Below, piece by piece: positions 23,901 to 38,968 of a DNA stretch of 38,968 nucleotides (position 1 is its first letter; every line of letters begins with the position of its first letter). The notes beneath the pieces are model-generated. The model did no database searches and was not told the origin of the DNA. It worked only from the letters and a program-made list of their open reading frames with translations. Origin of the DNA: a virus; the IMG/VR virus record IMGVR_UViG_3300030118_001088, positions 1-38,968 of that record. One strand, written 5' to 3'. The translations under genes were made by a program, and so were the position numbers.

Positions 23901-26900
23901 AAGATGAATATGAAATAAAAAAAGAAACAAATTACACTGCAGGATTTAATATGTTAACAGATGCTGTAACCACATTTGCTGGTGATGTAGCTTTAACCTA
24001 TGCTACTCTTGGGGTTGGTTCATCAGTTGGATTAGGTAGAATTGGAGTAGGTAGCACCAATACCTGGAGAAAAATTGCTATGGGTACTTCCATGTGGATC
24101 AATCATAGTGGAAACTTATACAATATGGCTAAAGAACAAGGAATGACTGATAGGGAGTCCTCTTCCTATGCAACCTTAATGAGTGTACTTTTTGGGCTAT
24201 CTAATGCTTATATATCACCTAACCTTGGAATACTTGGAGCCACACCTAAAATGGCTAAAGGTAAAACAAACACTGCTATGCTATCTATGATACTTGGAAA
24301 CGCATCTAAGCAAAACACTTTAAAAGCAACTAGTAAACATATGTTAATAGAGGGGTTTAAAGAGGGAGGTCAGGAACTAGTTGATGAAAATCTTCAGTCT
24401 TTAGTGGGTCAAGTTTACAATCAATATAAAGGGACTGACTTTGAAAAACTAAACTATGACCAAGCAAGAGATGCTGCTATAGCTGGTTTTGTTATTGGTT
24501 CTGTTGCTTCTATATCATCAAGGCCTACAACTAGCTCTATGCAGGTAGCATCTTTACACAAAGCTTATAAGTATAAAGATAATGTATTTCAGTCTTTAGA
24601 TAAAATGGTTGGTGAAACTATTAATCTTAATGGTAAAAGAGTAAAGTTAACTAAGTCTTTTATTAATAGTAGAAAGCAAAAGTTAAATAGATTGTTTGAA
24701 CAAGTTAATTCATTAAAGTCCCAGCCAGGAGTTAAGTTAAATAATGAAAGTGAAGCTATATTATTAGCCTTAATAAATAGAAGAAATAACGTAGAGGCTT
24801 TTCAAAATGATAAAAAATTTGGTCCTAAATTTAAGCAAGAAATGGAGCAAATAGACAATCAAGTTTCTAGATTGTTAAATGGAGAAAGTGTAGACTCAAT
24901 ATTTTATAAAGAAAGTTCTTTTGATAAACTAGGCATAGATAGTAGTAAAGTATCTTACGCAGGTAAACTTGCAGAAAGACTATTTAGAACAGGTGGTAAG
25001 TTTAGTAGGTCAACTAAAGCAGCAATAGAACAAGAATTAGAGTCAGATATAGATGCTTTAAACAACAAAAAAAAGCCAACACCTGAAGATAAAAAGATAC
25101 TAAGAACGTATAAATCATTATTAAAAAAAGTTAAAAAAGTAAAACCTGATATAAATGAAGAAATCACAGAAACAACCAAACTTGCAATCCAAAAAACTTC
25201 CCCTGGACTTAGAGCTAAAATTGAACAGCTTGTCGAAAGACTTAAAAGTAAAGGTATTACAGAAAATTTTGGAAACTTATCAGCCACAGAAGAAATCTCT
25301 ATAGATGATACATCAACATTTAAAGATGCTCTTGGTAGAACAATAAAATATGGAGGTAGAAATGGTAAATTGGTCTTAAATAAAAATGGTCAATATGCAA
25401 TAGAATCTGGTGGCAGAAAATATAAAATAGACAACGCAACAAATAGAAAGATGCTTAAGACAGTAGGGGTGGGCATAGACCCTGTTGTGGTATCTATAGA
25501 TGGAGATAAATTAGTAGTTAACAGAGGAAAAGAAAAAAGAGTATTAGAGGTAGTTAGGGGGGCAGGAAATAATGTAGGTGGAGTATTAACTGTTGATAAT
25601 GACACCTTCTCTGATAAAAGAAAACTAAACAGAATAAGAAAACAACTTAACAAACTATCTGGACAATATGCTAATGGTGAAATAAATTTAAGCACATTTA
25701 GAAATGAAGCAAGTAAAATATCTGGAGTTGAATTAATAACTGATAAAGACATATCTCTTGATGTAGCAGCTAATCAATTAATATCTCAAATAATGAACTC
25801 TATTGATGTTGCTTCTATATCCATGAATGAGATAGATAACATTATAGCAGAGGCTCAAGATGAATTGGACACACTACAAGAGTTAGAAGGAAAGTTTCAA
25901 AAAGCAGTAACTAAAGAGGTTACTGATTCAAGAAAAGCTAGAGGGAAAGCTTTAAAACCAGGTAAAAGAGTAAAGAAGGGTCAGCAAACTCTTCTTGATA
26001 TGTCCAAAAAAGAACCAAACAGAAGAAAGTCAAAGATATTAAAGATAGCTCATAATGTTATGTCCTCAATAGGATTTGATGTTGTAGTTCATAGTGATAG
26101 TAATTCTGTGTATGAACACTTTATTCTTAGTGGTCAAAGCCATCAATATGCTCAAAACGCAAAAAACTCTAGAGGTTTTATTTATGAAAAAAATGGAACT
26201 ATACACTTTAATTTAGAAACAGCTAGTTTAAATACAATGTTTCATGAGGGTGCACATCCATTTGTTAGTGTTTTACAAAACCTAGCTAAACAAAAGGGCG
26301 ATAAAGCTAACGATGCAAAAAAAATATTACAAGAAGCTAAAGAGTTTTTATCAAAAAGAAATATAGGTGCAGACAAAGACAATGGAACTTACATAGACTG
26401 GGCTGAAAGAAGTTATCCTAATTTATCAAAAGACGATCAACTAGCAGAGGCTTTAGCAGAATATCTTGGTGACTCTGCTTTAGAAGTTTATGAAAAAGAC
26501 AATAGCTGGGCTAAAGGTATATGGAGAAGAATACTAGGTTTATTTGGTGTAAATGTAGATTCAGATTTTGATGCTTACTCTAAAACTATGGAGGAGGTGT
26601 CTGACTTAGGTGAGTTTACAGAAGTTTTTTCTACAAGTTTAGCTAGGGGCCAAGAATTAGATCCAGGACAAATAGAAGGCACAGATCCTAAATTTCAAGC
26701 AGGTACAGAGGTGCAGTTAAATAATTTAGAGCAAGCTGTGAACTCTATTCAAACAGATAGATCCACAAAACAAGAGATACTAAAACAAATAGATATACAT
26801 TCTACTCCATTGACTAATTTAGAATTAACATTTAGTGGTTTAGAAAACTACTTAGAAGGACTAAAATTAAATTATGACGATCAACTAATTCCTATTCAGG

Positions 26901-29900
26901 CTGTCAAAGACTACATTAATATGAACAAGGTAAGTGTTGACGCTACAAAAGAAAATGAACTTAGCCTTAAAAATCCTATTATGGATCTAGGAAAAGTTAA
27001 GTTTAGAATGGATGACTCTATTGACGAGTCAGGACCTAGAACAATGGTTGTGGAGAACTTTGATGGTGTTGACTTTGGTAGTTTAGAAACTGTTTTCAAA
27101 AACATAATTAAGTATGCTGTAGATAGTGACGTACCTAGAGTAGTTTTTAGTAGTAATGTAATAACTAATGAATCGTCTATTGATGTTTTGGAAGAGGCTA
27201 CGCAATCTATAGATCCTAATTCTGACATTGGGGTAACAGAGTTGGATGGAGAGTCTGTACCTCAAGTTGTGGTATCTAATGGTATGATTGAAAATACCAC
27301 TAAAATTAACAACCCTAAGTTTCAAGCTGCTGGTAGAGATATACTAGATAGTCAAACTCAAACAAGATTTGGGATAATAGGAAAAAAGTTTGGATTCAAT
27401 TTAAACACTATTAAAGATTGGTTTGTTGTAGGTGGTATTGGATCTGGTGCTGTAAAAGAACTTAGAGCCTTAACTAAAGGTAGGCAAAAATCATACATAG
27501 ATAAAGGAGAGTATTTAGTAAAAGAGCTTCAAAAAGTTTTAAAAAAATATCCTGATATAACAATGGAAAATGTTAATGATGTTTTGACAGATCCTACTAA
27601 TAGTAAAGGGGCCAAAACAATCAAAAGAAGTATAAGATTAATAAAAGAAGAAATAAAATCATTAGATGTCTTTAAAGAAAAGTCAGTAAAATACAAAAAA
27701 CTAGAAAAGACTTTAAAATTAAAAGAAGAGCAGTTAAGAAACCTTTATGAAGGGCACAAAAACAAAAGAAAGCTTGATTCTATGCCAGATGATGTGAAAG
27801 AAAAAATAAAAGAGATTAGAGCATACATAGACAATTTAAGTCAAATGTTAATAGATTCTGGCTTATTAAGTGATGAGTTATCTGTATTTTACTCTGAAAA
27901 TAAGGGTATATATTTAACTAGATCTTATAAAGCTCATCAACAAAAAGAACCTACAGGCTTTGCTGCAGGTGCGTTAAAATTTCTATCAGAAAAAGTATTT
28001 GGAAAAGAATTTCAAGATTTAGATTTAATAAAAAGAAATCACAAACTATACAATAGTGCTAAACAATTTTTTAGAAAACAAATATTTGACTCTATGTCTG
28101 ATTCTGAGAAATCAAAAAGAAAAATTTCTAAACCTGAAGACGTGCCAGAATATGAAGTTGATGAGATAATAGGCGAGATACTAAATCCTGTTGATAGGGA
28201 GTCTCCTATTATGATATTAAATAAAGTTGGTCCACAAATAGCAAAATATTTAAAAGGAAGAAAAACAGAAGAACAATTACCAAAAATAATAAGAGATATT
28301 TTAGGTGAAGTTGACAATCCTTTCCTTAATATTTTAACTACTGTAACAAAACAAATTAATTTATTGGAGGGCTCTAGGTATCAAAACTTTTTAGTAGAAA
28401 TGTATGAAGGCACACTTTTATTTGACCCATCTAAACCATTTCCTAAAGAGTTAAGGGATATGGGATTCACTAATAACGACTTAATAGATATACAGCTAAT
28501 GGTTGATGGTGAAATGAAAACTTTTAGAACAGTAAAGGCTGCTGCTGACGCTATGTTAGGAAAAACAACACCAGGTCAAGTTGCTACAGCAGGAACTCAA
28601 GGAGTTCACAAAGCACTTCTTCATGCTTTTAATGGTTATTTTTATAGTTTAGGTTTATTTAAGTTATTTAAAACAGTATTTTCTTTTGCTACACAGGCGA
28701 ATAACTTTAGGGCTAATATATTATATGCTCTTAGAAACGTTCATCTTAATTTCTATAAACATGGTTTTGATGGATTTACCACTACTTTTAAAGCTATGGG
28801 TAAATGGAATGATGCAAAAAAACAAGAACTATATAGAGAATTACTGGAGTTTGGAGTTATTGAGTCTGCAGGTGTATCAGAACTACAAATGATGCTAGAG
28901 GAAGGTGGATCTGATTTCTTACAAGATCCTAACTTTAATCCTATGCGAGAAATAATGGAAATTAAACCTGGATTTTTGGGTGCCAACTGGCTTAAAAGTG
29001 GTCTCTCTAAAGTTAAAAAAGCAGCTTTAGCTACTTATTTATTTGGTGACGCATCTTGGAAAGCTAATGCTTGGTTGCATGAAGTAGAGAGATATAAAAA
29101 AGTAGGATACAGTGACTTTGATGCAAAAAGAATAGCTTCTCAAATAGTAAGAGCAACTTATCCTACCTATGAAAATGTTCCAAAAGCAGTTAAAGCTGTT
29201 GGTTTGATTCCAGATGGTGGTTTATTTGTTTCTTATCCTTTTGAAGTATATAGAACTTCTTTTAATATGGTTGATAGATCTAGAAAAGAAGTTATGGAAG
29301 GAATAAAAAGAAAAAACCCAGAGCTTTTAAAGTTAGGAATGACAAGGCTTTTAAGTTCCACATTAGCCATGTTTCACTCTGGAGTTGTGGCTAAAGCACA
29401 GATAATGGCTTTTATGTTTTTAGTTAAATCTATAAAAACATTATTAGGAGACGAAGAAGAAGAAGAGGGAAAACTTGATGAGACAGGTGAATTTGTATTA
29501 TCAGAGATGAATTTTGATTACATGCTTAATAATGAAATGAGTGAGGACTTTAGAATTTTTATGCCTCACTATTACGAAGATAATCATATTATGATAGTTA
29601 GTCATCCAGATACTGGGGTGTGGAAGTACATAAATGCAAGTAGAGAGGACGCTTTTGGAAATATTAAGTCAACTCTAAGACAATTTACTAATCCTATTGA
29701 GAATCCTACATATGATTATATTTTTCAAAACAAAACCATACATGCGTTATTAGGTGATTTTTTACCTGGTAATAAACAAAAAGTAGCAGAGATAATAGAA
29801 CAGGTAAGAAAAAATGATAAAAACTTAGACAATGATTTTAGTGGAGACGTAATATGGAGAGAGGGAGATAGTGGTTTAACGAAACAGATAAAAGCTCTTA

Positions 29901-30592
29901 AACATATATATAAAGATTTTTCTCCAACTACCATTAAACATATAACAGATATTGTAAAAGCAGCCAATCAGCAACCTCAAGAGGGTATTAAAGAAGGTTG
30001 GAGAAGAGTAGAAGAAGGTGAAGAATTACCAAGACGTGCTGTAACAGAAAATTTGTTAGATGGTAGTGGTAAAATAGTTAAATTAAAAAGCATTGATGAA
30101 GATTACGATTTGGGTGTAGAAATTAGAAGAATACTTGGTTATAGTGAAAGTGAAATTGATTTAGCTAGACAGTTTAGATTTCTTTTAGGAGATGTCAATT
30201 TCAAAACAGAATTTAATATAAAGGAAAGTGGTAGAACTTATGAAGAAATGATTGATAAAAGTATAGACCTAATAAGTCACATTAGAGATGTATATAATAT
30301 GTCTATGAAATATGGACTTGGTCATATGGAATATGTTGCTAGAGATAAAAGTATTGGAGTTATGAAAGGAAATGGTGGTATTGAAGTGGCCTTGACTATA
30401 ATGAATGATTTGAAATTAACTAAAGATTTTGCTAACTTAGTAATATCAGATAGAAAAATAGAAGACATGCCTGAGTTCAAAGAACTGATAAGAGGATCTA
30501 TTGAACGTAAATTAGGTGATGTAATTGTTTCTGATTCTAGAGAAGGTTATGAGATTTTATTAAAAAGACAAAAAGTAGAAGATAAAAGATAA
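20993..30592 (+). CDS. Giant polyvalent virion protein with M15 peptidase and HExxH metallopeptidase domains
   Basis: 3199 residues, a quarter of the window. In order: two N-terminal 30-residue repeats (residues 5-28 and 35-58); an acidic linker; an M15 (VanY-like) peptidase domain at ~150-275 with zinc ligands in SRHKHGLAMD (H206, D213) and HLHF (H267); a long charged helical part to ~980; Gly-rich hydrophobic stretches near 985-1025 and 1160-1175; a zincin domain at ~1690-1830 with HEGAH (1751-1755) and a likely third ligand E1819 or E1823; helical regions; and further hydrophobic stretches near 2540-2580 and 2785-2820. It probably travels in the virion and is injected, the M15 domain cutting peptidoglycan cross-links on entry. 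Its place fits T7 gp16 or N4 vRNAP, but I see no RNA polymerase or transglycosylase motif. Confidence 0.8.
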   Translation: MDKLQALYDKLSSDGLYTKSFDEFVTQFSEPSSQQALHEKLSSDGLYTKSYEDFQNQFFSEVKKKDQPEQPDDSSVVEDGTSGVEDGSLDSGEQEDEVINQIFPEIKDADGNKLPTNLSPDDTSYMVDISQAFPQIKNLPSEKKNFNSRLVDPKVAQFLAELQEIYPEEDFNNLDITSLFRDQKHHRFYEAEREGRKPESNVHSRHKHGLAMDVAGESGKKLMTFLYEDPKGQALAKKWGSGGNLKNGIHDEYGDMYKKQHNLNHLHFSFKRGQIDNTDYVQTKVNINKKPEINLGEDVDLGDFAKASIEEVVEETTPEEEGSMDNPGLYGRFNSQEVVENPEIFDEYSIDFELQKLYNPEITEEEKNTTIQNIKEKAYNAEGNQRLVHKFPVKELLGSDGKALVGGRDVYLTYDVDDNGEKTYKVVDPILGEFVSSSKTKQNTIRELNKKIQQKRSEADETRPRQISSFKGMPVFEKESEEHAKIKEEIFALESQLNELVSSPSGERDALVQWMLSNQATFLSKGGEMKDLSEFNKDSKGEIGLFLNAMNTAYNDAPFTTDTPGELLSMDILDYDGYTEGEGLTSLLTNEASDLKGISVNPRTILDDLLGEEKIEYEGRLSEQIDAIKMINNDETLKLYWQLYNFSGFDNNFTSEDYKRLQFLDKKYGDKVYNKKNTNPAEIIKWLELQERRQTAFSIWSADQLRKVTERVTSKLEKNGGLKEFNDLIDEVGSLTDEQIIIKNKIDKPQGYIYFDKEEYEEDQKLLERFNEINKIKKELEQEGEDLKKKYPEFNTFDGINKTQDILTNHALALNEQRGLLEEHERWKRNAKKEADEKYKDKNSVGKALSWLGDSVFEGFAKLGKSIVLDFPRLLDGFLRNEYNELDALSDGANDLFNDGLNRVFGDDSLNQKGAGGFSQYTVDMGNGFKVMVDRTGNPLETYYEDDDGFMIRTDYDKNQELIKKYTDNKDEYEIKKETNYTAGFNMLTDAVTTFAGDVALTYATLGVGSSVGLGRIGVGSTNTWRKIAMGTSMWINHSGNLYNMAKEQGMTDRESSSYATLMSVLFGLSNAYISPNLGILGATPKMAKGKTNTAMLSMILGNASKQNTLKATSKHMLIEGFKEGGQELVDENLQSLVGQVYNQYKGTDFEKLNYDQARDAAIAGFVIGSVASISSRPTTSSMQVASLHKAYKYKDNVFQSLDKMVGETINLNGKRVKLTKSFINSRKQKLNRLFEQVNSLKSQPGVKLNNESEAILLALINRRNNVEAFQNDKKFGPKFKQEMEQIDNQVSRLLNGESVDSIFYKESSFDKLGIDSSKVSYAGKLAERLFRTGGKFSRSTKAAIEQELESDIDALNNKKKPTPEDKKILRTYKSLLKKVKKVKPDINEEITETTKLAIQKTSPGLRAKIEQLVERLKSKGITENFGNLSATEEISIDDTSTFKDALGRTIKYGGRNGKLVLNKNGQYAIESGGRKYKIDNATNRKMLKTVGVGIDPVVVSIDGDKLVVNRGKEKRVLEVVRGAGNNVGGVLTVDNDTFSDKRKLNRIRKQLNKLSGQYANGEINLSTFRNEASKISGVELITDKDISLDVAANQLISQIMNSIDVASISMNEIDNIIAEAQDELDTLQELEGKFQKAVTKEVTDSRKARGKALKPGKRVKKGQQTLLDMSKKEPNRRKSKILKIAHNVMSSIGFDVVVHSDSNSVYEHFILSGQSHQYAQNAKNSRGFIYEKNGTIHFNLETASLNTMFHEGAHPFVSVLQNLAKQKGDKANDAKKILQEAKEFLSKRNIGADKDNGTYIDWAERSYPNLSKDDQLAEALAEYLGDSALEVYEKDNSWAKGIWRRILGLFGVNVDSDFDAYSKTMEEVSDLGEFTEVFSTSLARGQELDPGQIEGTDPKFQAGTEVQLNNLEQAVNSIQTDRSTKQEILKQIDIHSTPLTNLELTFSGLENYLEGLKLNYDDQLIPIQAVKDYINMNKVSVDATKENELSLKNPIMDLGKVKFRMDDSIDESGPRTMVVENFDGVDFGSLETVFKNIIKYAVDSDVPRVVFSSNVITNESSIDVLEEATQSIDPNSDIGVTELDGESVPQVVVSNGMIENTTKINNPKFQAAGRDILDSQTQTRFGIIGKKFGFNLNTIKDWFVVGGIGSGAVKELRALTKGRQKSYIDKGEYLVKELQKVLKKYPDITMENVNDVLTDPTNSKGAKTIKRSIRLIKEEIKSLDVFKEKSVKYKKLEKTLKLKEEQLRNLYEGHKNKRKLDSMPDDVKEKIKEIRAYIDNLSQMLIDSGLLSDELSVFYSENKGIYLTRSYKAHQQKEPTGFAAGALKFLSEKVFGKEFQDLDLIKRNHKLYNSAKQFFRKQIFDSMSDSEKSKRKISKPEDVPEYEVDEIIGEILNPVDRESPIMILNKVGPQIAKYLKGRKTEEQLPKIIRDILGEVDNPFLNILTTVTKQINLLEGSRYQNFLVEMYEGTLLFDPSKPFPKELRDMGFTNNDLIDIQLMVDGEMKTFRTVKAAADAMLGKTTPGQVATAGTQGVHKALLHAFNGYFYSLGLFKLFKTVFSFATQANNFRANILYALRNVHLNFYKHGFDGFTTTFKAMGKWNDAKKQELYRELLEFGVIESAGVSELQMMLEEGGSDFLQDPNFNPMREIMEIKPGFLGANWLKSGLSKVKKAALATYLFGDASWKANAWLHEVERYKKVGYSDFDAKRIASQIVRATYPTYENVPKAVKAVGLIPDGGLFVSYPFEVYRTSFNMVDRSRKEVMEGIKRKNPELLKLGMTRLLSSTLAMFHSGVVAKAQIMAFMFLVKSIKTLLGDEEEEEGKLDETGEFVLSEMNFDYMLNNEMSEDFRIFMPHYYEDNHIMIVSHPDTGVWKYINASREDAFGNIKSTLRQFTNPIENPTYDYIFQNKTIHALLGDFLPGNKQKVAEIIEQVRKNDKNLDNDFSGDVIWREGDSGLTKQIKALKHIYKDFSPTTIKHITDIVKAANQQPQEGIKEGWRRVEEGEELPRRAVTENLLDGSGKIVKLKSIDEDYDLGVEIRRILGYSESEIDLARQFRFLLGDVNFKTEFNIKESGRTYEEMIDKSIDLISHIRDVYNMSMKYGLGHMEYVARDKSIGVMKGNGGIEVALTIMNDLKLTKDFANLVISDRKIEDMPEFKELIRGSIERKLGDVIVSDSREGYEILLKRQKVEDKR
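21005..21166 (+). repeat. Tandem 30-residue repeat at the N-terminus of the giant protein
   Basis: Residues 5-28 and 35-58 repeat the core KLSSDGLYTKS with a following (F/Y)(D/E)(E/D)F and QF. The DNA copies are offset by 90 nt and share 17 identical bases (21029-21045 and 21119-21135). It may be a small helical docking module ahead of the peptidase. Confidence 0.8.
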
Positions 30593-30598
30593 ATAATT

Positions 30599-31216
30599 AT
30601 GAGTTACACAAGAGAACAAATAGAAAAAGCAGTAAAATCAAAAGGTTACGTTTGGTTTGAAGACAAAAACAATAAAGGTTTTGATGTTAATATTGTAGGT
30701 ATTAGAAACTCTGATACTGGAGATGAAGTTACAAATAAGTTTGATGATAAAATTACTATATCATACAAAGAAGATGGCGAATGGAAATTTCATTGTTATG
30801 ATTGTACTACAGACCCAGGAAGGTACTGGACCAAAAATATTATGAGAAAGGAAGGGGTGGCTATGATGAAGCCTGGACAGTACAGGCGTTCCCACAAAAT
30901 TAGATTACATGCTGGTAAATATCCAGCGTTAGGTCAATGTGGTCCTGTCACTGTTTATAGAGACGCAAACAAAGATGATAGATACGACTTAGATGACAAC
31001 AATACTCAAACAGGATTGTATGGTATAAACATACACAGGGCAACAGGTAGAAAGGGTAAGACTTCTACGCAAGTTGACAAGTGGTCTGCTGGTTGTCAAG
31101 TAATTGCTAACAATGACGATTGGCATGAGTTCTTAGATATATGCTATGAAGCTAAAGCAATTTGGGGTAATAAATTTACTTATACTTTAATAGAAAGTAA
31201 AGATATAGAGTCTTAA
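30599..31216 (+). CDS. Putative endolysin with L,D-transpeptidase (YkuD)-like active site
   Basis: A 205-residue protein starting 6 nt after the giant gene. Its C-terminal half has GINIHRA (H146) and, 20 residues on, WSAGCQVI (S163-C166). This matches the His...Ser-x-Gly-Cys arrangement of YkuD-type L,D-transpeptidases, which act on peptidoglycan stem peptides through the cysteine. The first ~95 residues are a separate, mixed alpha/beta region without a recognisable wall-binding motif. There is no signal peptide, so release would need the holin encoded at 32691. In a phage the domain would more likely cleave than join peptides. An accessory virion role is the alternative. No other lysozyme or amidase is present. 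Confidence 0.6.
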   Translation: MSYTREQIEKAVKSKGYVWFEDKNNKGFDVNIVGIRNSDTGDEVTNKFDDKITISYKEDGEWKFHCYDCTTDPGRYWTKNIMRKEGVAMMKPGQYRRSHKIRLHAGKYPALGQCGPVTVYRDANKDDRYDLDDNNTQTGLYGINIHRATGRKGKTSTQVDKWSAGCQVIANNDDWHEFLDICYEAKAIWGNKFTYTLIESKDIES

Positions 31217-31309
31217 ACATATAAATGTTAGTAAGTTTTGTAATTAATTAATATTTATTACAGATAATTTTTATTATATTTATACGTTTTTCATGTTAGT
31301 TTTGATTTA

Positions 31310-31344
31310 GGGGGGAGCACTTCTTTTTTTTAGTCCCCCCTTTT
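31310..31344 (+). terminator. Terminator at the end of the late arm
   Basis: GGGGGGA (31310-31316) pairs with TCCCCCC (31334-31340) around a 17-nt loop, followed by TTTTCTTTT. An alternative fold pairs ACT with AGT and bulges AGC. It lies in the 142-nt gap between the lysin gene and the small-gene cluster; nothing else is coded there. Confidence 0.75.
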
Positions 31345-31358
31345 CTTTTAAAAAAGTT

Positions 31359-31604
31359 ATGAGAGATTACAAAAAAGAATATAAAAAATTTCAAAGTTCA
31401 GAGAAATCTAAAAAGGATAGAGCTGCTAGAAATAGAGCAAGGAGAAGACTAGCTAGAAAAGGCATGGTAACAAAAGGTGATGGAATGGATGTTCATCACA
31501 CTAAGGGTATTAATTCAGAAGAAGTTAAAGTAATAAGAAAATCTAAAAACAGAGGAATGCCAGGCGAAGGTGGTAGGAGAAAGGGCGTTAAAAAAAATAG
31601 ATAA
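31359..31604 (+). CDS. Small Arg/Lys-rich, probably nucleic-acid-binding protein
   Basis: 81 residues, about a third of them Arg or Lys. The first half is a helical basic stretch (SEKSKKDRAARNRARRRLARK, about residues 15-35), then KGDGMDVHHTKG, then a basic tail. The DVHHTKG followed by a strand and a SKNRG turn resembles a minimal HNH-type core (DH-H ... N), and proteins with this layout occur in many tailed phages. The full metal-binding set is not present, so a nuclease activity is doubtful; a DNA-binding role is safer. It is the first gene of a tightly overlapping cluster and shares one base with the HNH gene. Confidence 0.6.
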   Translation: MRDYKKEYKKFQSSEKSKKDRAARNRARRRLARKGMVTKGDGMDVHHTKGINSEEVKVIRKSKNRGMPGEGGRRKGVKKNR

Positions 31605-32008
31605 TGTACCACAAAGAGAAAAAGAAAAAGCAACTAGGGATGAATCCTGGCACAGCTTCTAACAGGTTAAAAAAATCAATACTATTTTCTTTTGCTAAAA
31701 AACTAGGTCTCAACTGGTGTTACCAGTGTGGAACTGAAATAACCAACATACATAAGTTCACAGTAGAACATAAAACTCCATGGTTAGATTCTGATGATCC
31801 TAAAAAATTATTTTTTGATTTAGATAACATAGCATTTTCTCACGCTAGTTGTAACTATGCTGCATCTAGAAGCAGAAAAGCAAAGCCATGTCCTTCTGTT
31901 ACAGCTTATAGAAATGGTTGTAGATGCGAGGGTTGTTTAGAAGCTAAGCGTGAATATAGAAGAAAGAAAAGAGAATTTAAAAATAAGTTAAATGAAAAAA
32001 AATTGTGA
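31604..32008 (+). CDS. HNH endonuclease with a C-terminal Cys motif
   Basis: 134 residues. The HNH core is clear: CYQC (C39, C42), TVEHKTPW (E55, H56), LDNIAFSHASC (N75, H80, C83). Four cysteines form the structural zinc site and H56/N75/H80 the catalytic metal site. A second Cys group follows (C96, C106, C108, C111, in CPSVTAYRNGCRCEGC), a small finger seen attached to phage HNH proteins. Such free-standing nucleases can serve packaging, genome nicking or homing. Packaging is less likely here because the gene is far from the terminase. Start ATG overlaps the previous stop as TAATG. Confidence 0.75.
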   Translation: MYHKEKKKKQLGMNPGTASNRLKKSILFSFAKKLGLNWCYQCGTEITNIHKFTVEHKTPWLDSDDPKKLFFDLDNIAFSHASCNYAASRSRKAKPCPSVTAYRNGCRCEGCLEAKREYRRKKREFKNKLNEKKL

Positions 32009-32267
32009 GGGACTTCCTGGATGTGGGAAGAAAAAAGATAAGTTAAGCTTATTAAAAAGAGCTCAAAACTTTATAGGTACGTCAACTAAACACATAGCTA
32101 ATGGTCTTAAAAATGTTAGCGATACTGATTATATGATTAGAATAAGAACTTGTAACACCTGTGACAAATTATCTGGTGGTAATACCTGTTCACTATGTGG
32201 CTGTTACATGCCTACTAAGGCCAGATGGGAGGTTTCAGATTGTCCATTAAATAAATGGAAGAAATGA
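31992..32267 (+). CDS. Small zinc-ribbon protein
   Basis: A 91-residue protein with two cysteine pairs spaced as a ribbon (C54-x2-C57 and C66-x2-C69, plus C71 and C84) in RTCNTCDKL...NTCSLCGCYMP...SDCPLNKW. Small proteins of this design are common in tailed phages and their function is unknown. Two additional N-terminal cysteines (C5, C11) may be incidental. It overlaps the HNH gene by 17 nt and the following 48-residue ORF by 4 nt (ATGA), so the four genes of this cluster are probably translated together. Confidence 0.7.
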   Translation: MKKNCEGLPGCGKKKDKLSLLKRAQNFIGTSTKHIANGLKNVSDTDYMIRIRTCNTCDKLSGGNTCSLCGCYMPTKARWEVSDCPLNKWKK

Positions 32268-32410
32268 AAAAAATTGGTGTTGGCTTTCAGTTTTCTCATG
32301 GTATAGTGTTTGGAATCAGGCATTACGAACCAGATATGGAGTATAATTATTATGAAGTACAACTATTTTTAGGGGTAGTAGTATTCACAGTAACACTACA
32401 TAGAGAATAA
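32264..32410 (+). CDS. 48-residue protein of unknown function
   Basis: This short gene begins at ATG 32264, overlapping the zinc-ribbon stop as ATGA, and ends with TAA at 32408-32410. The product starts MKKIGVGFQFSHGIVFGIRH, followed by an acidic Tyr-rich stretch and a hydrophobic C-terminal segment (VQLFLGVVVFTVTLHRE). The coupling, the coding-like composition and the exact fit into the space before the convergent gene argue that it is real. It could be a small beta protein or a membrane-associated peptide; I do not recognise it. Confidence 0.6.
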   Translation: MKKIGVGFQFSHGIVFGIRHYEPDMEYNYYEVQLFLGVVVFTVTLHRE

Positions 32411-32689
32411 CTATTTCTTATTTGGTATAAATACACCTTTGTCTAGGTCTACTACACCATCTCCATGTTTTTCTTTTAGCTTCTCAGCTATTCTTTGTTC
32501 TCTAGTTATATTACCTTTGTACTTAGCAGCCATATCTGACTCTAATTTATTAATATCAGATATTCTTTGCTCTAAGTTTATTCTTTCTAATTTTAAGTTT
32601 CCAAAGTCAAACATTATCTTGCTAACTTCGTTTCTTAATTTAGTTACATCTTTGATGATTGTTTCGTCAATTTTAATTTCTTTTGCCAT
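32411..32689 (-). CDS. Small coiled-coil protein
   Basis: A 92-residue protein, last gene of the leftward arm; its TAG stop abuts the TAA stop of the rightward cluster. Residues ~15-75 form a heptad-like helix (TKLRNEVSKIMFDFGNLKLE, then ERINLEQRISDINKLE), and the end, GDGVVDLDKGVFIP, is a short conserved-looking motif that I have seen at the end of small phage proteins. No TM or signal. It follows the holin gene by one base, so a role in lysis or virion assembly could be considered, but the function is unknown. Confidence 0.6.
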   Translation of the reverse strand: MAKEIKIDETIIKDVTKLRNEVSKIMFDFGNLKLERINLEQRISDINKLESDMAAKYKGNITREQRIAEKLKEKHGDGVVDLDKGVFIPNKK

Positions 32690-32690
32690 T

Positions 32691-33095
32691 TTATTTAATT
32701 TTATTGTTTCTTAATTTTTCAATTGACCTTCCTCCAAAATAGCTACCCACGATTGTAATTAACACAATTTGTAACAGGTCAGCAAAGTGAGGCTTGACTT
32801 GAAAGTCTATGTACCCTGCATCAATAAATATTAACAACATAGTACAAGCTAACATAAATATAAGGGTCAATGGTCTTACATTTTTACTTAACCATGAATC
32901 AGAGTTCATATCAGCCTTCCATCTATCTGTTATGTTAGACTCCATTTGAGCTTGATGAGATAAGATCATCTCTTTTAATTTTCTTTTTGCTTCTAGTTTT
33001 TCTTCTTTAGTTGTAGTCAATGAGTCTAGAACACCACCTACAGAGTCTACTAGTTCGCTAGCACCTCCACTAAATATTTTTTTTAGTATTCCCAT
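32691..33095 (-). CDS. Holin, 3TM superfamily type
   Basis: A 134-residue protein with an N-terminal amphipathic region (residues 1-25), a charged helix (30-60), the sequence SWLSKNVRPLTL, a hydrophobic segment 75-92, a second 104-120, and a basic end (GGRSIEKLR). The SWLS-K-x-RP-x-T approach to the first membrane segment is characteristic of the holin family of gene transfer agents and many phages of Gram-negative hosts. It would permeabilise the inner membrane to release the lysin from 30599. It overlaps the resolvase-like gene by 26 nt in the same operon, on the opposite strand from the lysin. Confidence 0.75.
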   Translation of the reverse strand: MGILKKIFSGGASELVDSVGGVLDSLTTTKEEKLEAKRKLKEMILSHQAQMESNITDRWKADMNSDSWLSKNVRPLTLIFMLACTMLLIFIDAGYIDFQVKPHFADLLQIVLITIVGSYFGGRSIEKLRNNKIK

Positions 33096-33528
33096 TTTTT
33101 TCTTTAATTAATTTTATAGTTTGTAATATCTGTTTTTTACTCCCAGGCATGTAAAGATCGTAATTTAACTTGTTTTTTGCAAGATATTGTTTAAAAAGTT
33201 TCCATTTGACGTTAAAAACGTCAGACTTCAACCCTTTTACCTCTATTATCCAACCTTGCTTAATATTAGTGAAATCAGGCACATAAGTTATTGACCTTAC
33301 TGACTGTGAAGCCTCATCATAAACTAACTTACCTTTCTTTTTTCTTTTTTCTATAGAGCTTCCATTATATTTAAACTTATCCATCAGGACAAACTTCTCT
33401 TTTTCATAATGAAACTTTATGTTAGCCTTCCTTAATTCTATAGATGTAAAGGCCTCTAACCTTGACCTATATTTTATACCATCAACATTAGTGACCTTGA
33501 CATTTTTTATCCTACCTTTTTTGCTCAT
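33070..33528 (-). CDS. Endonuclease I-like Holliday junction resolvase
   Basis: 152 residues. The active-site pattern of phage endonuclease I is present: YRSRLEA (E25), YVPDF (D85) and IIEVKG (E96, K98), the E-x(n)-PD-x(n)-E-x-K arrangement of a PD-(D/E)xK nuclease. T7 gp3 uses the same set to cut branched DNA before packaging and to degrade host DNA. The length is close to the T7 enzyme (149 residues). Between E25 and D85 there is a Lys-rich insertion (residues 58-68). It overlaps the exported-protein gene by 17 nt and the holin gene by 26 nt. Confidence 0.75.
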   Translation of the reverse strand: MSKKGRIKNVKVTNVDGIKYRSRLEAFTSIELRKANIKFHYEKEKFVLMDKFKYNGSSIEKRKKKGKLVYDEASQSVRSITYVPDFTNIKQGWIIEVKGLKSDVFNVKWKLFKQYLAKNKLNYDLYMPGSKKQILQTIKLIKEKNGNTKKNI

Positions 33529-33919
33529 GTAGATATTCTAAATTTATATAATTTATTCCTTTATCGTAAAATCCTGTTACTTCATTAAAATCATAATAGT
33601 AAAGAAAATATCCCCTCTCTGTATTAATTTTACATGCGTTCTCCCTATGAACAGTGTAAAGATAATTCCCATCACTAGCTTGCTTAATAAACACCCAGGG
33701 GTAATAAACTCCCCAGTTGTGTAATTCATAAATAACTCTGAATCCATTTTCTGTTATGTGTAAAAACGTTGTATCCATATAAGTTACATTTTTAATAGCC
33801 TTACCATTAGAATTGTAATCTATGTAAACAGAATGTGTTGATTTATAATACCCTTCTTTGACCTGAGCTGAACCTTGAAACGTCAAGGCTACCAGCAAAA
33901 TAAAAATCGCTTTTTTCAT
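33512..33919 (-). CDS. Small exported protein of unknown function
   Basis: A 135-residue protein with a clear Sec signal peptide: MKKAIFILLVALTFQGSA, with likely cleavage after A18. There is no lipobox cysteine at the cleavage site. The mature part is Tyr-rich and beta-rich (YYKSTHSVYIDYNSNG; YYPWVFIKQASDGNYLYTV), with a single Cys, and is not recognised. It is embedded in a replication/lysis operon, so it is made early and sent to the periplasm. Possible roles are superinfection exclusion or envelope modification; a host-derived moron gene is also possible, since Bacteroidota carry many small exported Tyr-rich proteins. Confidence 0.7.
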   Translation of the reverse strand: MKKAIFILLVALTFQGSAQVKEGYYKSTHSVYIDYNSNGKAIKNVTYMDTTFLHITENGFRVIYELHNWGVYYPWVFIKQASDGNYLYTVHRENACKINTERGYFLYYYDFNEVTGFYDKGINYINLEYLHEQKR

Positions 33920-33937
33920 ATTTAATTATTTTGGTTA

Positions 33938-34207
33938 TTAATCTTTATATACATCATTACTCATTCCCATATCTTGTCTCCATTTCCAGCCTGTAATTTC
34001 AAGCTCTATCTGTGTTGATGATCTTATTTTTTGAGCTATGGAGTTTTTTAAATATCCATCTTTATTCAATTCTTCTACAGTATCTCCAACAGCACAAGAA
34101 ACAAAAGTTCCTTTTTTGTATTCTTTAGCTGGCCTTTTGATTCCCTTTACTACCCTTACGTTTCTCCATTTATACTCAACTTCTATGTGCCATATTCTTT
34201 TTCTCAT
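33938..34207 (-). CDS. Small protein of unknown function
   Basis: An 89-residue basic protein. It begins RKRIWHIEVEYKWRNVRVVKG, an alternating strand pattern, and continues with a KGTFVSCAVGDTVEELN segment and a Trp-containing end (ITGWKWRQDMG). The ATG overlaps the stop of the PD-(D/E)xK gene as ATGA, so it is coupled to it and is likely genuine. No catalytic motif, TM or signal peptide is seen. Confidence 0.55.
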   Translation of the reverse strand: MRKRIWHIEVEYKWRNVRVVKGIKRPAKEYKKGTFVSCAVGDTVEELNKDGYLKNSIAQKIRSSTQIELEITGWKWRQDMGMSNDVYKD

Positions 34208-34656
34208 GCCTTCTTTTTTATTTTACCTATGTAACATAAGTCTATTGTAGGGACTTTAGTAAACAAATCTTTGGCTCCAGGCCTGCTAGATAATTCATAA
34301 ACATTCCAGCCCATAACTTTGTCTACACATTTTTCATGAATCCAATCTTGTAGATTTTCTTTCTTTACTTCAATCCAGTAGTCTTTAGTTTCAAAAGCAA
34401 AGCCATCTGCGTCTCCATATAACCAACCTTTTTTGCCTTGCACATTTTTAAACTCTACAAAATGGATGTTTTCATCATCTTTCTTTATAGCTTTAACATC
34501 TATCTTATAACCCTCTACTTTAACGTCCCAATGTTCTTTTATATCTTGCATCTCTGTTGGCCATTCTACATTAACATAAAGTTTAGCATAATTTTTTTCT
34601 GCTTTCTTTCCTCTAGCTACATCTATAGCTTTTTTCTCTTTACTTTTGTATCTCAT
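34204..34656 (-). CDS. Putative PD-(D/E)xK nuclease
   Basis: A 150-residue protein with HWDVKVEGYKIDVKAIKK, giving D44 followed by a D53-x-K55 pair, the spacing of a compact PD-(D/E)xK core, and a second strand HFVEFKN (E68, K70). A helix rich in Lys/Glu precedes it (residues 5-25), which could supply the N-terminal acidic residue. Later GWLYGDADGFAFE resembles the strand-turn after the core in small phage resolvases and recombination nucleases. It overlaps the DnaB gene by 17 nt. The exact activity cannot be read from the sequence; a junction- or ss/ds-fork-specific nuclease working beside the helicase is plausible. Confidence 0.5.
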   Translation of the reverse strand: MRYKSKEKKAIDVARGKKAEKNYAKLYVNVEWPTEMQDIKEHWDVKVEGYKIDVKAIKKDDENIHFVEFKNVQGKKGWLYGDADGFAFETKDYWIEVKKENLQDWIHEKCVDKVMGWNVYELSSRPGAKDLFTKVPTIDLCYIGKIKKKA

Positions 34657-35926
34657 GAAACTTAGTTAATTCTTTTTGAAACCTTAATCCTAATACACCT
34701 GTTCCTACATTTCTACCCTTAGCAAATATAACCTCAGCTAAACCCTCTGTGCTATTACCATTTTCATCTGTATCTATACCATAATACTCAGGTCTATATA
34801 TTAAAACAACCATATCTGCAGCTTGCTCTATCTCACCAGATTCCCTAAGATCAGCTATAGTAGGTCTACTTTCTGCTCTTTGACCAACACCCCTATTAAG
34901 TTGTGATAGAGCTATGATAGTTACTTTAAGCTCTTTTGCTACGTTTTTTAAGGCTCTTGCTACTTCAGATACCTCTTGCTCCCTACTTCTTCCTTTCTTG
35001 TTGTTTGTTACCAACTGCAAGTAATCTACCATTACTAACTTTACTTTTTTGGTTATAACATACTGTCTAATTTTATTTACTAAATATCTCAGTGATGAGT
35101 TATTGCAGTCATCTATATAAATAGGTGTTTGCTCTATCCTTCCTGCAGATTCATGTATTTTACCTAGTTCTGCTTGATCTAAGCTTCCTTTTAGTATCCA
35201 CTTGTTATCTATTCCTGAATCAGATGAAATTAATCTACTTAATAATTGTTGGTTGCTCATCTCATATGAAAACAAAACTGTAGGTACTTTACCATAAAAA
35301 GATGCGTTAAAAGCAAAGGCCAAAGCTAATGATGTTTTACCCATGGACGATGCTCCACCCACTATAACTAAATCTGTTTCTTGCCAACCACCTGTAAACT
35401 TATCTATATTATTAAATCCTGTAGTAATACCATTCAATCCTTTGTTGTTCATTTTATATTCTATAGACTTCAGTAAGTCAGTGATCTGATCTTTTATTTC
35501 TACTACACCTTCATTGTCTATGCTCGATATTTTTACAACCTCTTCATCTACATAATTCATAATCTCAAAAACATCCTCGTCATCACTAATCATTTTATTT
35601 ACTTTAGAAGTAAAATCTTTTAGTTGTTCCTTTTTCTTGTATTGATTTAAAACAAGAACACAAGTTTGAGCCTGTGTTTCTAGCATAGCGTCCTCTTTCA
35701 TCATAACTGCCACATCCTCTATGTTGTCTATACTATCTGCTAAGTCAACTATATCTATCTTATCTCCCTTGTCTAACTTTTCAGACAAAATGCTATACAA
35801 ACGTCTATTGAATACATTAGAGAATAGGTTAGGGTCTATTAAAGAGTGATTGTTATAATACTCTTGTGGGTTGTTTATTATTTTACCTAATAATGTTCTT
35901 TCTATTTGTTCTCTATTTATCAACAT
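34640..35926 (-). CDS. dnaB: Replicative DNA helicase, DnaB family
   Basis: 428 residues, the normal range for phage DnaB. N-terminal helical domain at 1-~110 (INREQIERTLLGKIINN), a linker, then the RecA-like motor: Walker A GGASSMGKTS (G190-S199; K197, T198), catalytic E222 in SYEMS, Walker B VMVDYLQL (D301), the SQLNRGV loop, RESGEIEQAADMV, and arginine finger region FAKGRN (R405). It unwinds DNA at the fork as a hexamer. The gene overlaps the putative loader upstream by 14 nt and the PD-(D/E)xK gene downstream by 17 nt. A DnaA-like gene and SSB-like gene lie in the same arm; no primase is seen. Confidence 0.95.
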   Translation of the reverse strand: MLINREQIERTLLGKIINNPQEYYNNHSLIDPNLFSNVFNRRLYSILSEKLDKGDKIDIVDLADSIDNIEDVAVMMKEDAMLETQAQTCVLVLNQYKKKEQLKDFTSKVNKMISDDEDVFEIMNYVDEEVVKISSIDNEGVVEIKDQITDLLKSIEYKMNNKGLNGITTGFNNIDKFTGGWQETDLVIVGGASSMGKTSLALAFAFNASFYGKVPTVLFSYEMSNQQLLSRLISSDSGIDNKWILKGSLDQAELGKIHESAGRIEQTPIYIDDCNNSSLRYLVNKIRQYVITKKVKLVMVDYLQLVTNNKKGRSREQEVSEVARALKNVAKELKVTIIALSQLNRGVGQRAESRPTIADLRESGEIEQAADMVVLIYRPEYYGIDTDENGNSTEGLAEVIFAKGRNVGTGVLGLRFQKELTKFHEIQK

Positions 35927-36401
35927 TTGTAAATTTTGGTTTTTGATATACTTGTTTTGTTTCGTTTGATATTATTTCATTTCTCCATGCCTTTTGATAT
36001 ATCCATGTAGATGGATTCTTCCTGTATTGTTTATCAGGAGTAGACTTTACATACATAGGTAAAACACCTAATGCCTCGCCCATATCTACCATAGATAACT
36101 TCATCCACTTTTTAAGGGCATCATCCCTGTTTATTTTTTTATCATACATTTCCCAAAACTTAAAAAACATTTCTTGTTTTTCTGCTAGTTTTTGTTCTGT
36201 TGGTTTTGTTACTGGATCTGTTGTAGCATCTCTAAATGAGCTAGCTACTCTATTGAAAACATCACTTGCTGTTTCCTCAGAATCGTATATTTCTTCGTGT
36301 TTCCTAGATGATATATAAAATATAATTTTAACACCATCTAAATAATACTGCTCTATACTAGAGCTTTCTATAAATGAATCTCTGTTAATTTTTATTAGCA
36401 T
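35913..36401 (-). CDS. Putative helicase loader/replication initiation protein
   Basis: A 162-residue protein upstream of and overlapping DnaB by 14 nt. Residues 1-65 have no clear relation. Residues ~75-145 show MFFKFWEMYDKKINRDDA, a WMKLS segment, and STPDKQYRKNPSTWIYQKAW. This FWxxYDKK...A...W..L...YR..PsTWlyqkaW pattern is the C-terminal module found in phage replication initiator/loader proteins next to DnaB-type helicases. It probably helps load the helicase at the origin. No ATPase motif is present, so it is not a DnaC-like AAA+ loader. The final residues are polar and extend over the DnaB start. Confidence 0.6.
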   Translation of the reverse strand: MLIKINRDSFIESSSIEQYYLDGVKIIFYISSRKHEEIYDSEETASDVFNRVASSFRDATTDPVTKPTEQKLAEKQEMFFKFWEMYDKKINRDDALKKWMKLSMVDMGEALGVLPMYVKSTPDKQYRKNPSTWIYQKAWRNEIISNETKQVYQKPKFTNVDK

Positions 36402-36419
36402 GCTGTTAGTTTTGTACCC

Positions 36420-36439
36420 AAGGGGGGATAACCCCCCTT
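36420..36439 (-). terminator. G-tract hairpin between SSB-like and loader genes
   Basis: A perfect 8-bp inverted repeat (AAGGGGGG 36420-36427, CCCCCCTT 36432-36439) with a 4-nt loop. On the minus strand no U tract directly follows, so it may be a partial terminator, an RNA processing or stability element, or a signal read on either strand. Confidence 0.55.
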
Positions 36440-36456
36440 AAGTAATTTATAAACAA

Positions 36457-36720
36457 TTAAAATGGTAAATCTTTAGAATCTTTTCCTTTATTTGAATCTG
36501 GTTCAAAGTCATTGATTCTAACTGAATGAGTTTTACCATACTCATTAGCACCACCTTTTAAAGCTGATATAGTAAGGTTAATATATTTTTTACCTTCATA
36601 ATCATAAACGTGATCCTTAATTTTATCTAAGTGTAAAGTAAAGTTAACGATAGACCCTCCATCTGAGAAAGTCACCTCTTTACCATTTCCACAATAAATA
36701 GTTTCTTTAGTTTTTTGCAT
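36457..36720 (-). CDS. Single-stranded DNA-binding protein-like, small
   Basis: 87 residues. The C-terminus is acidic and ends in DSKDLPF, the tail shape of SSB (DDDIPF) and of T7 gp2.5-type proteins, which binds partner proteins such as helicase and nuclease. The body has strand-like segments (GKEVTFSDGGSIVNFTLHLD; KKYINLTISALKGG) compatible with a short OB-fold. The gene sits beside an exonuclease and an annealing-like protein, where SSBs are usual. It is shorter than most SSBs, so a compact phage-type SSB is proposed rather than a cellular one. Confidence 0.6.
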   Translation of the reverse strand: MQKTKETIYCGNGKEVTFSDGGSIVNFTLHLDKIKDHVYDYEGKKYINLTISALKGGANEYGKTHSVRINDFEPDSNKGKDSKDLPF

Positions 36721-36737
36721 TTTTTTTAAATTTTAAA

Positions 36738-36932
36738 TTAAACAAATAAATAATTGAAGGCCCAATTTGGGTCTACATTTAACATCTCAGAAATTAATCT
36801 AATCTCTTGAGCTGTAAACAACTCAGGCTTTAAAACCTTTTTCGTTGTTGTTGGTCTTGACCTAGAAATATAGGTTGATACTTCTTGTAAAGTAATTTTT
36901 TTGTTTTTTAATTCTGTTCTTAGTTTACTCAT
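36738..36932 (-). CDS. Small HTH-like protein
   Basis: 64 residues, coupled to the exonuclease gene by an ATGA overlap. ITLQEVSTYISRSRPTTTKK followed by an EIRLISEMLNVDP helix resembles the helix-turn-helix of small Cro/CI-type regulators, where the turn falls after SRSRPT. A regulator could control this arm, but a DNA-binding accessory protein for recombination is also possible. The call relies on pattern only. Confidence 0.5.
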   Translation of the reverse strand: MSKLRTELKNKKITLQEVSTYISRSRPTTTKKVLKPELFTAQEIRLISEMLNVDPNWAFNYLFV

Positions 36933-37699
36933 AATATTGATTCTATATAATAATTATTAATATCGCTTTCTTGCCTTATAAAGTAATTATTATAAGTTTC
37001 TAGCAGTTTTTTATATTTTTTTCTTCCTTCTTCTATAAACTCGCTACTACACATATATACTCCTACATCATAAGGAGCTTGTTTTTCTATCACAATAAAC
37101 CAAAATTCATCACCACCAAAACCATCTGTATAAAAAGCTGCTTGTCTATCGTACCCATATTTATAACAAGATCTCCTGAAAGATTCCTCATTGTGTTCTT
37201 GCGTAGTCTTTAAATCTATTAGCATCTTAACTCCATTAACATTTTTTATCATGTCTGATTTACCCTTGCAATAAACTCCAGTTTCGCTGTCTTGCCAACA
37301 ATTTACAGCCTCAGGTACACCATCTGTAATAAGATCTTTTACCCTAGGTATACTCATTAATTTATCAAACATCCTAAAAATAGATTCGTATTCAGAAGAC
37401 GATATAATAGTTTTTTCTGAGTTATCTCTCTTGAAAGACTCCCATTCCTTGCCCCTCCTAACTTTACCCTCGTACCTTATAACTTCTTCTGAAAACTTAT
37501 CAGGCTCAAAAACAGCCATGTGCATAGCCCTACCAAATAATAAGGCATTAGTATCATCTTGACCATATTTTCTATAATGATCTAACACCTTTGGTGATTT
37601 CGCTAGCTTGCCTAATTGTGAGTTGGTGATAAAGTTTTTATCCCCATAATATTCAGCATCACTTTTACTGAATATTTCTATTTGTTTTTCAAAGTTCAT
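36929..37699 (-). CDS. RecE-like PD-(D/E)xK exonuclease
   Basis: 256 residues. Motifs of the RecE/exonuclease VIII type: LLFGRAMHMAVFEPDKF (H60), GVYCKGKSDMI (D149), MLIDLKTT (D162, K164) and DRQAAFYTDG (Q186, Y190), with a final strand FWFIVIEKQAP. In this family H, D, D and K build the active site, Q stabilises the core, and the enzyme degrades one strand of dsDNA ends to leave a tail for annealing. The annealing-like gene lies 1 nt upstream in the same operon, the classic pairing. The length is shorter than full RecE and close to phage RecE-domain proteins. Confidence 0.8.
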   Translation of the reverse strand: MNFEKQIEIFSKSDAEYYGDKNFITNSQLGKLAKSPKVLDHYRKYGQDDTNALLFGRAMHMAVFEPDKFSEEVIRYEGKVRRGKEWESFKRDNSEKTIISSSEYESIFRMFDKLMSIPRVKDLITDGVPEAVNCWQDSETGVYCKGKSDMIKNVNGVKMLIDLKTTQEHNEESFRRSCYKYGYDRQAAFYTDGFGGDEFWFIVIEKQAPYDVGVYMCSSEFIEEGRKKYKKLLETYNNYFIRQESDINNYYIESIL

Positions 37700-37700
37700 G

Positions 37701-38228
37701 TTACATGTTTTGTTTTATAGCCTCATTTAATTGATCCATTTGTTCTTTATCTATATCATAGCTATCCATTCTTTGTTTAACTAATAAGCCTTGCTTATCG
37801 CTTATAGCCATCATCATAGCATCAAATTGATCTGTTGTTAGTTTTTTTTTAGTTGTTTTATTTTTCGCTTTCGTGCCTTTGTCGTTGATGATAGCATTTT
37901 GGACCTCATCTGCACTAGCTACTGAGCTATCTATACCAATACCAAAGTTACCTAAGGCTCTTCCCCATGCAGAGGTTTCGCAAACCTCAACGTGTGATGT
38001 TTTATTAATATAACTTGAACCTCTTGTTTCGTGTGCATGACCTGTTGCTATTACAACACCCTCTGCATTAAATATACTAGCCTTCATTACGCAGTGTTCT
38101 TCTGTGCATTGTAAAACTTCAGTTGTTAGTGCGTAGTCTTTGTAGTTTTCTCTGAAATATTTAAGTCTTTCATTGACTTCAACATATTCCTTACCTTTGA
38201 TATTAATTGTTTTTAGATTTCTTTTCAT
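37701..38228 (-). CDS. Single-strand annealing-like protein
   Basis: 175 residues. After a basic start (MKRNLKTINIKGKEY), residues 40-110 hold VLQCTEEHCVMKASIFNAEG, a GHAHETRG turn and HVEVCETSAWGRALGNFGIG (E84-L92 of the ETSAxGRAL block). That block occurs in phage proteins annotated as DNA single-strand annealing or recombination proteins. The C-terminal 60 residues are Lys/Met/Gln-rich helix. Its partner exonuclease follows after 1 nt, which is the main support for the annealing role. The exact annealase superfamily (Rad52-, Erf- or other type) cannot be settled from sequence alone. Confidence 0.6.
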   Translation of the reverse strand: MKRNLKTINIKGKEYVEVNERLKYFRENYKDYALTTEVLQCTEEHCVMKASIFNAEGVVIATGHAHETRGSSYINKTSHVEVCETSAWGRALGNFGIGIDSSVASADEVQNAIINDKGTKAKNKTTKKKLTTDQFDAMMMAISDKQGLLVKQRMDSYDIDKEQMDQLNEAIKQNM

Positions 38229-38257
38229 GTTTATTAAATTAAATTAAACTTATTTTA

Positions 38258-38265
38258 CAAATGTA
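38258..38265 (-). promoter_or_regulatory. -7 promoter element for the leftward replication arm
   Basis: On the minus strand the element reads TACATTTG, a TAnnTTTG match, 29 nt before ATG 38228 and in the 62-nt A/T-rich gap after the DnaA-like gene. It would drive the annealing-protein-to-coiled-coil operon. No TTG is seen at -33. Confidence 0.6.
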
Positions 38266-38290
38266 GTAAAATTATTTTATTAAATACTAG

Positions 38291-38749
38291 TTAAAGTAAA
38301 TATTTTTTTCTTAGATCTGATAATTCTTTTTTTATTCTTTCGCAATCTTTTTTTTCATTTTCGTATAACCTTTTGAGTACATTGTTTATTTTCTTTTGTT
38401 CTTTTAATTGTTTTTCAATATCAGTAGAATAATCGTTTTGAATACCTAAATCAATTAATGTTTTACCATAAGTTTTTCTGTACTTAAAATTGTTTTTGTT
38501 GTCTTGCTCGTGTTGTTTTCTTGCGTGTATTACAGAGGCATGATTTTTATATCCTAATATATCCCTTATTGCATAGTTAGTTAGTCCTTTTTCGTTCCAT
38601 AATATTGATACTAACATTTGTCTTGCTCTAACAATATGATCTAGTTTTCTTGCGTGTTTATCTCTAAATAATAGATTTGAGGTTACACTACAATTAGTGC
38701 ATACAGAATTTACTATTTTTCTTAATTCTGGTGACTGATTTTTTTTCAT
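38291..38749 (-). CDS. DnaA domain IV-like DNA-binding protein
   Basis: 152 residues. Residues ~31-85 reproduce the origin-binding domain of DnaA: a first helix KHARKLDHIVRARQMLVSIL, then NEKGLTNYAIRDILGYKNHA and SVIHARKQ (DnaA signature GxRDHSTVxHAxxK; here residues 65-79). There is no AAA+ domain, so it cannot oligomerise as DnaA does. It may recognise a phage origin containing DnaA-box-like sites, or interfere with host DnaA. The C-terminal 60 residues are a Lys/Glu coiled coil (KQLKEQKKINNVLKRLYENE), suggesting dimerisation. It lies upstream of the leftward operon promoter. A CX2C pair (C17, C20) near the N-terminus has no partner. Confidence 0.65.
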   Translation of the reverse strand: MKKNQSPELRKIVNSVCTNCSVTSNLLFRDKHARKLDHIVRARQMLVSILWNEKGLTNYAIRDILGYKNHASVIHARKQHEQDNKNNFKYRKTYGKTLIDLGIQNDYSTDIEKQLKEQKKINNVLKRLYENEKKDCERIKKELSDLRKKYLL

Positions 38750-38762
38750 GTTTTTTCTAGTT

Positions 38763-38960
38763 TTATTTTTTTAATATTAGTTTTAGATATTTATCTTTGT
38801 GTTTGTCAAAGTCCCTTTGTGCAACATCAGTAAAAGAGCAACCAATATACTCAACACAATTTTCTATGTAAGGGCTAATATCTAAATCTTGATATTTTTT
38901 TTCCACTTTATCCATAGCTAATCTATGAGCCAAATGTTCAGGGTTAATTTCTATTTTCAT
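38763..38960 (-). CDS. Small protein of unknown function at the window edge
   Basis: 65 residues, first visible gene of the leftward arm. It contains two cysteines (NCVEYIGCSFTD) and otherwise helical charged sequence (HLAHRLAMDKVEKKYQDLD; DFDKHKDKYLKL). The ATG is 8 nt from the end of the window, so its promoter and any upstream gene are not visible. The gap to the DnaA-like gene is 13 nt, which supports a common transcript. No family is recognised. Confidence 0.5.
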   Translation of the reverse strand: MKIEINPEHLAHRLAMDKVEKKYQDLDISPYIENCVEYIGCSFTDVAQRDFDKHKDKYLKLILKK

Positions 38961-38968
38961 AATTTTTT

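Follow-up and report, generated by a model that had tools for sequence, protein, structure and literature searches.

Phage proteins consisting of a DnaA domain IV that stands alone are already known and widespread, and they are often annotated as such in phages of Cellulophaga, Olleya, Tenacibaculum, Sulfitobacter, Pelagibacter, Octadecabacter, Rhizobium and Pseudanabaena; in the BFVD, too, numerous small proteins bear the name "Chromosomal replication initiator, DnaA C-terminal". DnaA has been listed among the proteins common to HTVC010P-related phages (PMC6811365) and among those common to two Polaribacter phages (PMC4615864). Highly abundant marine phages, the HTVC010P group among them, carry genes of this kind, which are labelled "DnaA" despite lacking the ATPase through which DnaA acts. 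No functional study of a phage stand-alone domain IV was found in the open literature searched, coverage of which was incomplete.

Here we examined such a gene at positions 38291-38749 (- strand) of a viral contig of 38,968 nucleotides (IMG/VR record IMGVR_UViG_3300030118_001088), the whole of which is referred to as the window. Its product meets the description of a phage stand-alone domain IV protein, being a domain IV without ATPase encoded in an early/replication module. The initial annotation suggested that it would be a minimal DnaA-type initiator, a claim of novelty that was overstated given that stand-alone domain IV is already annotated in many phages; what is new here is the fixed seven-gene cassette that this gene heads and the identification of the adjoining 62-bp gap as a conserved promoter.

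Identity of the protein

The open reading frame at 38291-38749 starts with ATG and encodes 152 amino acids. Residues 11-78 (38516-38719, - strand), delimited as domain IV proper by the HMM match coordinates and alignment, resembled PF08299 (Bac_DnaA_C, profile positions 3-67 of 69, E = 6.1e-5). The score of 23.4 bits did not reach the curated cut-off of 31.5 bits, nor did that of the top relative of the first set (29.7 bits), and the assignment to DnaA domain IV is based on fold and profile evidence and not on membership at the Pfam threshold. By E-value the PF08299 match was significant in 12/12 divergent family members, and when the profile of these 12 members was compared with the PDB, the only credible matches were to DnaA (1j1v, E = 6e-5; 2hcb and 1l8q, both 0.011). 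The AlphaFold model showed domain IV with its five helices and, apart from it, a helix of 44 residues, and a Foldseek search with the predicted fold returned DnaA at all of ranks 1-11, with 1j1v at the top (TM 0.72 by target length). TIGR00362 (DnaA) was matched at its C-terminal end only (342-430 of 437, E = 4e-6) and the AAA+ ATPase domain III is absent from the protein. With PF08299, PDB profile search, AlphaFold and Foldseek in agreement, the gene was confirmed as encoding a complete free-standing DnaA domain IV with a C-terminal helix and without ATPase.

Copies with 83-100% identity were found in seven IMG/VR contigs. In the two relatives with amino-acid changes dN/dS was 0.03-0.10 for domain IV and 0.10-0.16 for the tail; where amino-acid changes allow a judgement, selection on the protein is strongly purifying. 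Given the low dN/dS and the conserved synteny described below, the gene is real. A pattern scan found no relatives in bacterial genomes, and there was no useful match in PHROG, where PHROG 16091 was unmatched at the cut-off used. Phages whose terminase is similar mostly have Flavobacterium or Cellulophaga as host, and the host of this phage is very probably a member of the Bacteroidota. We regard the product as a real and conserved stand-alone domain IV of a marine Bacteroidota phage, most likely an adaptor that binds DNA in phage replication or in the control of replication.

The C-terminal helix (residues 108-151; 38297-38428, - strand) was predicted by AlphaFold with a pLDDT of about 90, and its heptad periodicity exceeded that of 99% of shuffled sequences (P = 0.01). 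The helix and the terminal (K)KKY motif were retained in relatives at 35-40% identity. The end for which the initial annotation gave a coiled coil is thus a predicted 44-residue helix, and it is plausible that this helix forms a coiled coil and that it serves in dimerisation.

Residues contacting DNA

The protein was aligned with the DnaA of E. coli and with the Bacteroidota-like DnaA of contig L020; the E. coli row matches 1j1v over the stretch that was compared, and the roles of single residues in DNA contact were taken from PMC5742627 and general knowledge. The recognition helix region GYKNHASVIHAR corresponds to residues 66-77 (- strand). The equivalents of R407, H434, V437, H439 and A440 were retained, and the DNA-contacting residues of the DnaA signature, the loss of which would have counted against a DnaA-type binder, were found in place, with R43 (R407), H70 (H434) and H75 (H439) invariant in relatives down to about 20% identity. 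A71 and S72 were nearly invariant among relatives. The position of T435 is occupied by Ala, as it also is in the DnaA of L020, and that of T436 by Ser, while the position of D433 is Asn in the clade of the window and Asp in deeper family members. The minor-groove loop near R399, through which E. coli DnaA recognises the TTA side of its box (PMC5742627), stays basic and carries an insertion of 2-3 residues in the clade of the window. In four distant relatives (L153, L154, L156 and L158), RDHAS, RDHST or RDHAT replaces KNHAS in the recognition helix. Sequence-specific DNA binding by the protein is likely from this pattern of conservation; that its site is the same as the DnaA box TTATNCACA is uncertain.

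A conserved seven-gene cassette

The domain IV gene is followed on the - strand by six genes, which encode in order a putative ssDNA-annealing-type protein of 175 aa (37701-38228; phrog_11717 of unknown function, the label being inferred from position and sequence), a PDDEXK exonuclease of the RecE/ExoVIII-like type (36929-37699; PF12684, E = 7e-29; phrog_412, E = 2e-60), a small repressor-like HTH protein of 64 aa (36738-36932; phrog_4583, E = 4e-6), an SSB-like protein of 87 aa with a tail ending in DLPF (36457-36720; inferred from sequence, with no HMM match), a loader/primosomal-type protein (35913-36401; phrog_9474, 270 and 9327) and a DnaB-family replicative helicase (34640-35926; PF03796, E = 4e-85; TIGR00665, E = 4e-102). 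The matches of the loader-like protein to phage replication-initiation families were confined to the C-terminal part of these families, and its predicted structure had a pLDDT of 35; its N-terminal 50-60 residues had no match.

Synteny was examined in IMG/VR relatives found through DnaB, and among the contigs extending far enough upstream to be counted the order of seven genes headed by domain IV was the same in 17 of 17. This bears out the proposed association with a DnaB operon whose loader-like protein is not an ATPase, both the loader-like gene and DnaB keeping their places in the cassette. The domain IV gene was the most divergent of the seven (34-40% identity; in the same relatives the other six reached 53-72%). 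Four further members come from more distant phages with a rearranged locus (L153, L154, L156 and L158); there the domain IV gene is found some 5-6 kb downstream of where DnaB starts, near an exonuclease.

Outside the cassette, a GroES-like co-chaperonin is encoded at the left end of the window (1-426, + strand; PF00166, E = 6e-9; PHROG co-chaperonin GroES, E = 1e-14), where the end of the contig cuts the gene. A protein of 3199 aa (20993-30592, + strand) takes up a quarter of the contig and had no Pfam match at E 0.001.

The promoter downstream of the gene

The initial annotation named the 62-bp gap at 38229-38290 as a candidate DNA target of the protein. Alignment with relatives identified this intergenic stretch instead as the promoter from which the replication operon downstream is read (- strand), with TACATTTG at 38258-38265 (- strand) as a -7 box of the Bacteroidota type. 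A box of the form TAnnTTTG was found at about constant distance in 18/20 related loci, between the domain IV gene and the remaining cassette, and across the window such boxes lay at most 70 nt upstream of 7/31 genes as compared with 5.4% of random stretches. The gap was rejected as an origin on the basis of this conserved promoter. In the clade of the window no -33 TTG was visible upstream of it, and neither a conserved inverted repeat nor a DnaA-box-like operator was seen at the promoter in the window or its relatives.

DnaA boxes and repeats

The search for repeats resembling the DnaA box, also suggested in the initial annotation, gave a negative outcome in this fragmentary contig: TTATNCACA occurred 4 times compared with 2.6 expected and was unclustered, and with one mismatch it occurred 59 times compared with 66 expected. 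Canonical boxes thus showed no enrichment and no clustering in the window, which is a fragment; the likely origin and noncoding control region lies outside it. The same was found in ten other phages with a stand-alone domain IV (two of them covered only in part) and in the upstream loci L009 and L010. An apparent shortage of boxes in all nine phage genomes tested was not significant when compared with permuted words. No iterons or repeat arrays were detected in 31000-38968 or in L010. Contig L011, which is 99.9% identical to the window in the overlap and extends it by 5.6 kb, was considered as a source of the control region and rejected, the added sequence being coding where read. Close relatives differ in the block that lies upstream of their small early genes (L010 1-1800, L011 1-1035), which suggests recombination near the early control region.

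In pelagiphages of the HTVC010P type, one TTATNCACA-like site recurred at a constant position within the main noncoding region, roughly 55-67 nt upstream of the gene preceding the terminase. Of 72 contigs, 21 had the exact site and 51 had it with at most one mismatch, as compared with 5 and 33 for the best of 60 permuted words. It lies at 667-675 in HTVC010P (L022) and at the same place in many of the contigs L039-L118, mostly as TTATACACA or TTATACAAA. This site may be bound by the stand-alone protein or by host DnaA, or it may be a promoter element.

Possible roles of the protein

The predicted structure and the retained contact residues suggest that the protein probably binds double-stranded DNA sequence-specifically as a pair held together through the C-terminal helix. 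The most likely role, which we put forward tentatively, is that of an adaptor marking a site in the control region for the phage loader and DnaB. The protein would bind DnaA-box-like DNA at a single site or a few sites within the noncoding control region, and the loader and DnaB would then assemble at the marked site; melting would fall to other factors, given that the protein is without an AAA+ domain. The identity of the domain and the order of the cassette in 17/17 loci reaching far enough are in favour of this role, as are the presence of similar proteins in replication-recombination modules of other phages and the TTATNCACA-like site kept in the noncoding region of HTVC010P-type phages, where such a protein is also encoded. 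Against it, the window and its relatives show no enrichment or cluster of boxes, the rapid divergence of domain IV within the cassette also fits host-directed roles, and the site in pelagiphages may be the -10 element of a promoter (TATACA-like).

Bacterial DnaA acts in transcription control as well, through domain IV. A possible though somewhat doubtful alternative is that the phage protein is a transcription factor that binds phage promoters, for example the one just downstream of its own gene, and activates or tunes the operon from the annealing-type gene through exonuclease, SSB and loader to DnaB. The TAnnTTTG promoter that separates the domain IV gene from the other cassette genes in 18/20 loci is compatible with this, and the lack of a visible -33 TTG in the clade of the window would fit a need for an activator. 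The promoter has, however, no visible inverted repeat or DnaA-box-like operator, and the cassette already contains another small HTH protein.

It is also possible, though doubtful to a similar and slightly greater degree, that the protein competes with host DnaA by filling boxes at the host origin or at DnaA-controlled promoters, thereby halting host initiation and freeing replisome parts. Its DnaA-like recognition helix, with the T435 to Ala change shared with the DnaA of L020, its rapid divergence and the absence of box clusters from the phage genomes themselves would all agree with such a role, but the Asp433 to Asn change and the loop insertion in the clade of the window may change binding to the canonical box, and pelagiphages retain a box-like site in their own genome.

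Less probable still is a split initiator, in which a dimeric domain IV would recognise the origin at a site unlike the canonical box and the small loader, with its C-terminal initiator part, would load the helicase, the two together replacing the two-domain initiator found in other phages. That the protein is an unrelated HTH protein resembling DnaA by chance is extremely improbable: by itself it lies under the Pfam cut-off, but the profile, fold and family evidence indicates DnaA alone, and the Foldseek ranks and PDB profile search rule this out.

The fixed linkage of domain IV to DnaB and a loader-like gene in one cassette offers a clean system for asking what the protein does in such phages, and "DnaA" labels on stand-alone domain IV proteins should not be taken to denote initiators.

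Comparison with known systems

Compared with domain IV of E. coli DnaA bound to a DnaA box (1j1v), the protein has the same fold and the equivalents of R407, H434 and H439, and differs in being without domains I-III, in the substitutions D433 to N, T435 to A and T436 to S, and in the insertion near R399. Initiators of the lambda O type are small non-ATPase origin binders that work through a loader. The protein is likewise small and without ATPase, but the fold of its DNA-binding part is unrelated to theirs, and no counterpart of their iterons was found in 31000-38968 or L010.

Named phages were searched with a DnaA domain IV consensus that we composed, because tblastn with the 152-aa protein gave only weak matches. 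HTVC010P gp46, HTVC024P gp26 and Greip gp42 are similar in having domain IV without ATPase in a recombination region, but in DnaA of the HTVC010P type domain IV is C-terminal and preceded by about 85 residues. Sulfitobacter phage phiGT1 gp62 (QLB38274, "DnaA C-terminal domain IV") is also a stand-alone domain IV (115 aa) encoded in the early region, but it is without the long C-terminal helix and the DnaB operon is not directly adjacent. The proteins of flavobacterial phages (Cellulophaga phi46:3 gp011 and phi19:3 gp013, Olleya Harreka_1 gp24 and Tenacibaculum Gundel_1 gp36) are stand-alone domains of 131-155 aa within replication-recombination modules; they adjoin methylase, SSB, NinB or DnaC-like genes and are without the seven-gene cassette, and those of phi46:3 and Gundel_1 match PHROG 16091, unlike the protein described here. 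Domain IV adjoins primosomal and DnaC-like genes in Gundel_1, a DnaC-like loader in Arctus_1 and SSB and annealing protein genes in C72C1, and in Greip and HTVC024P it lies near genes for an annealing protein and a nuclease.
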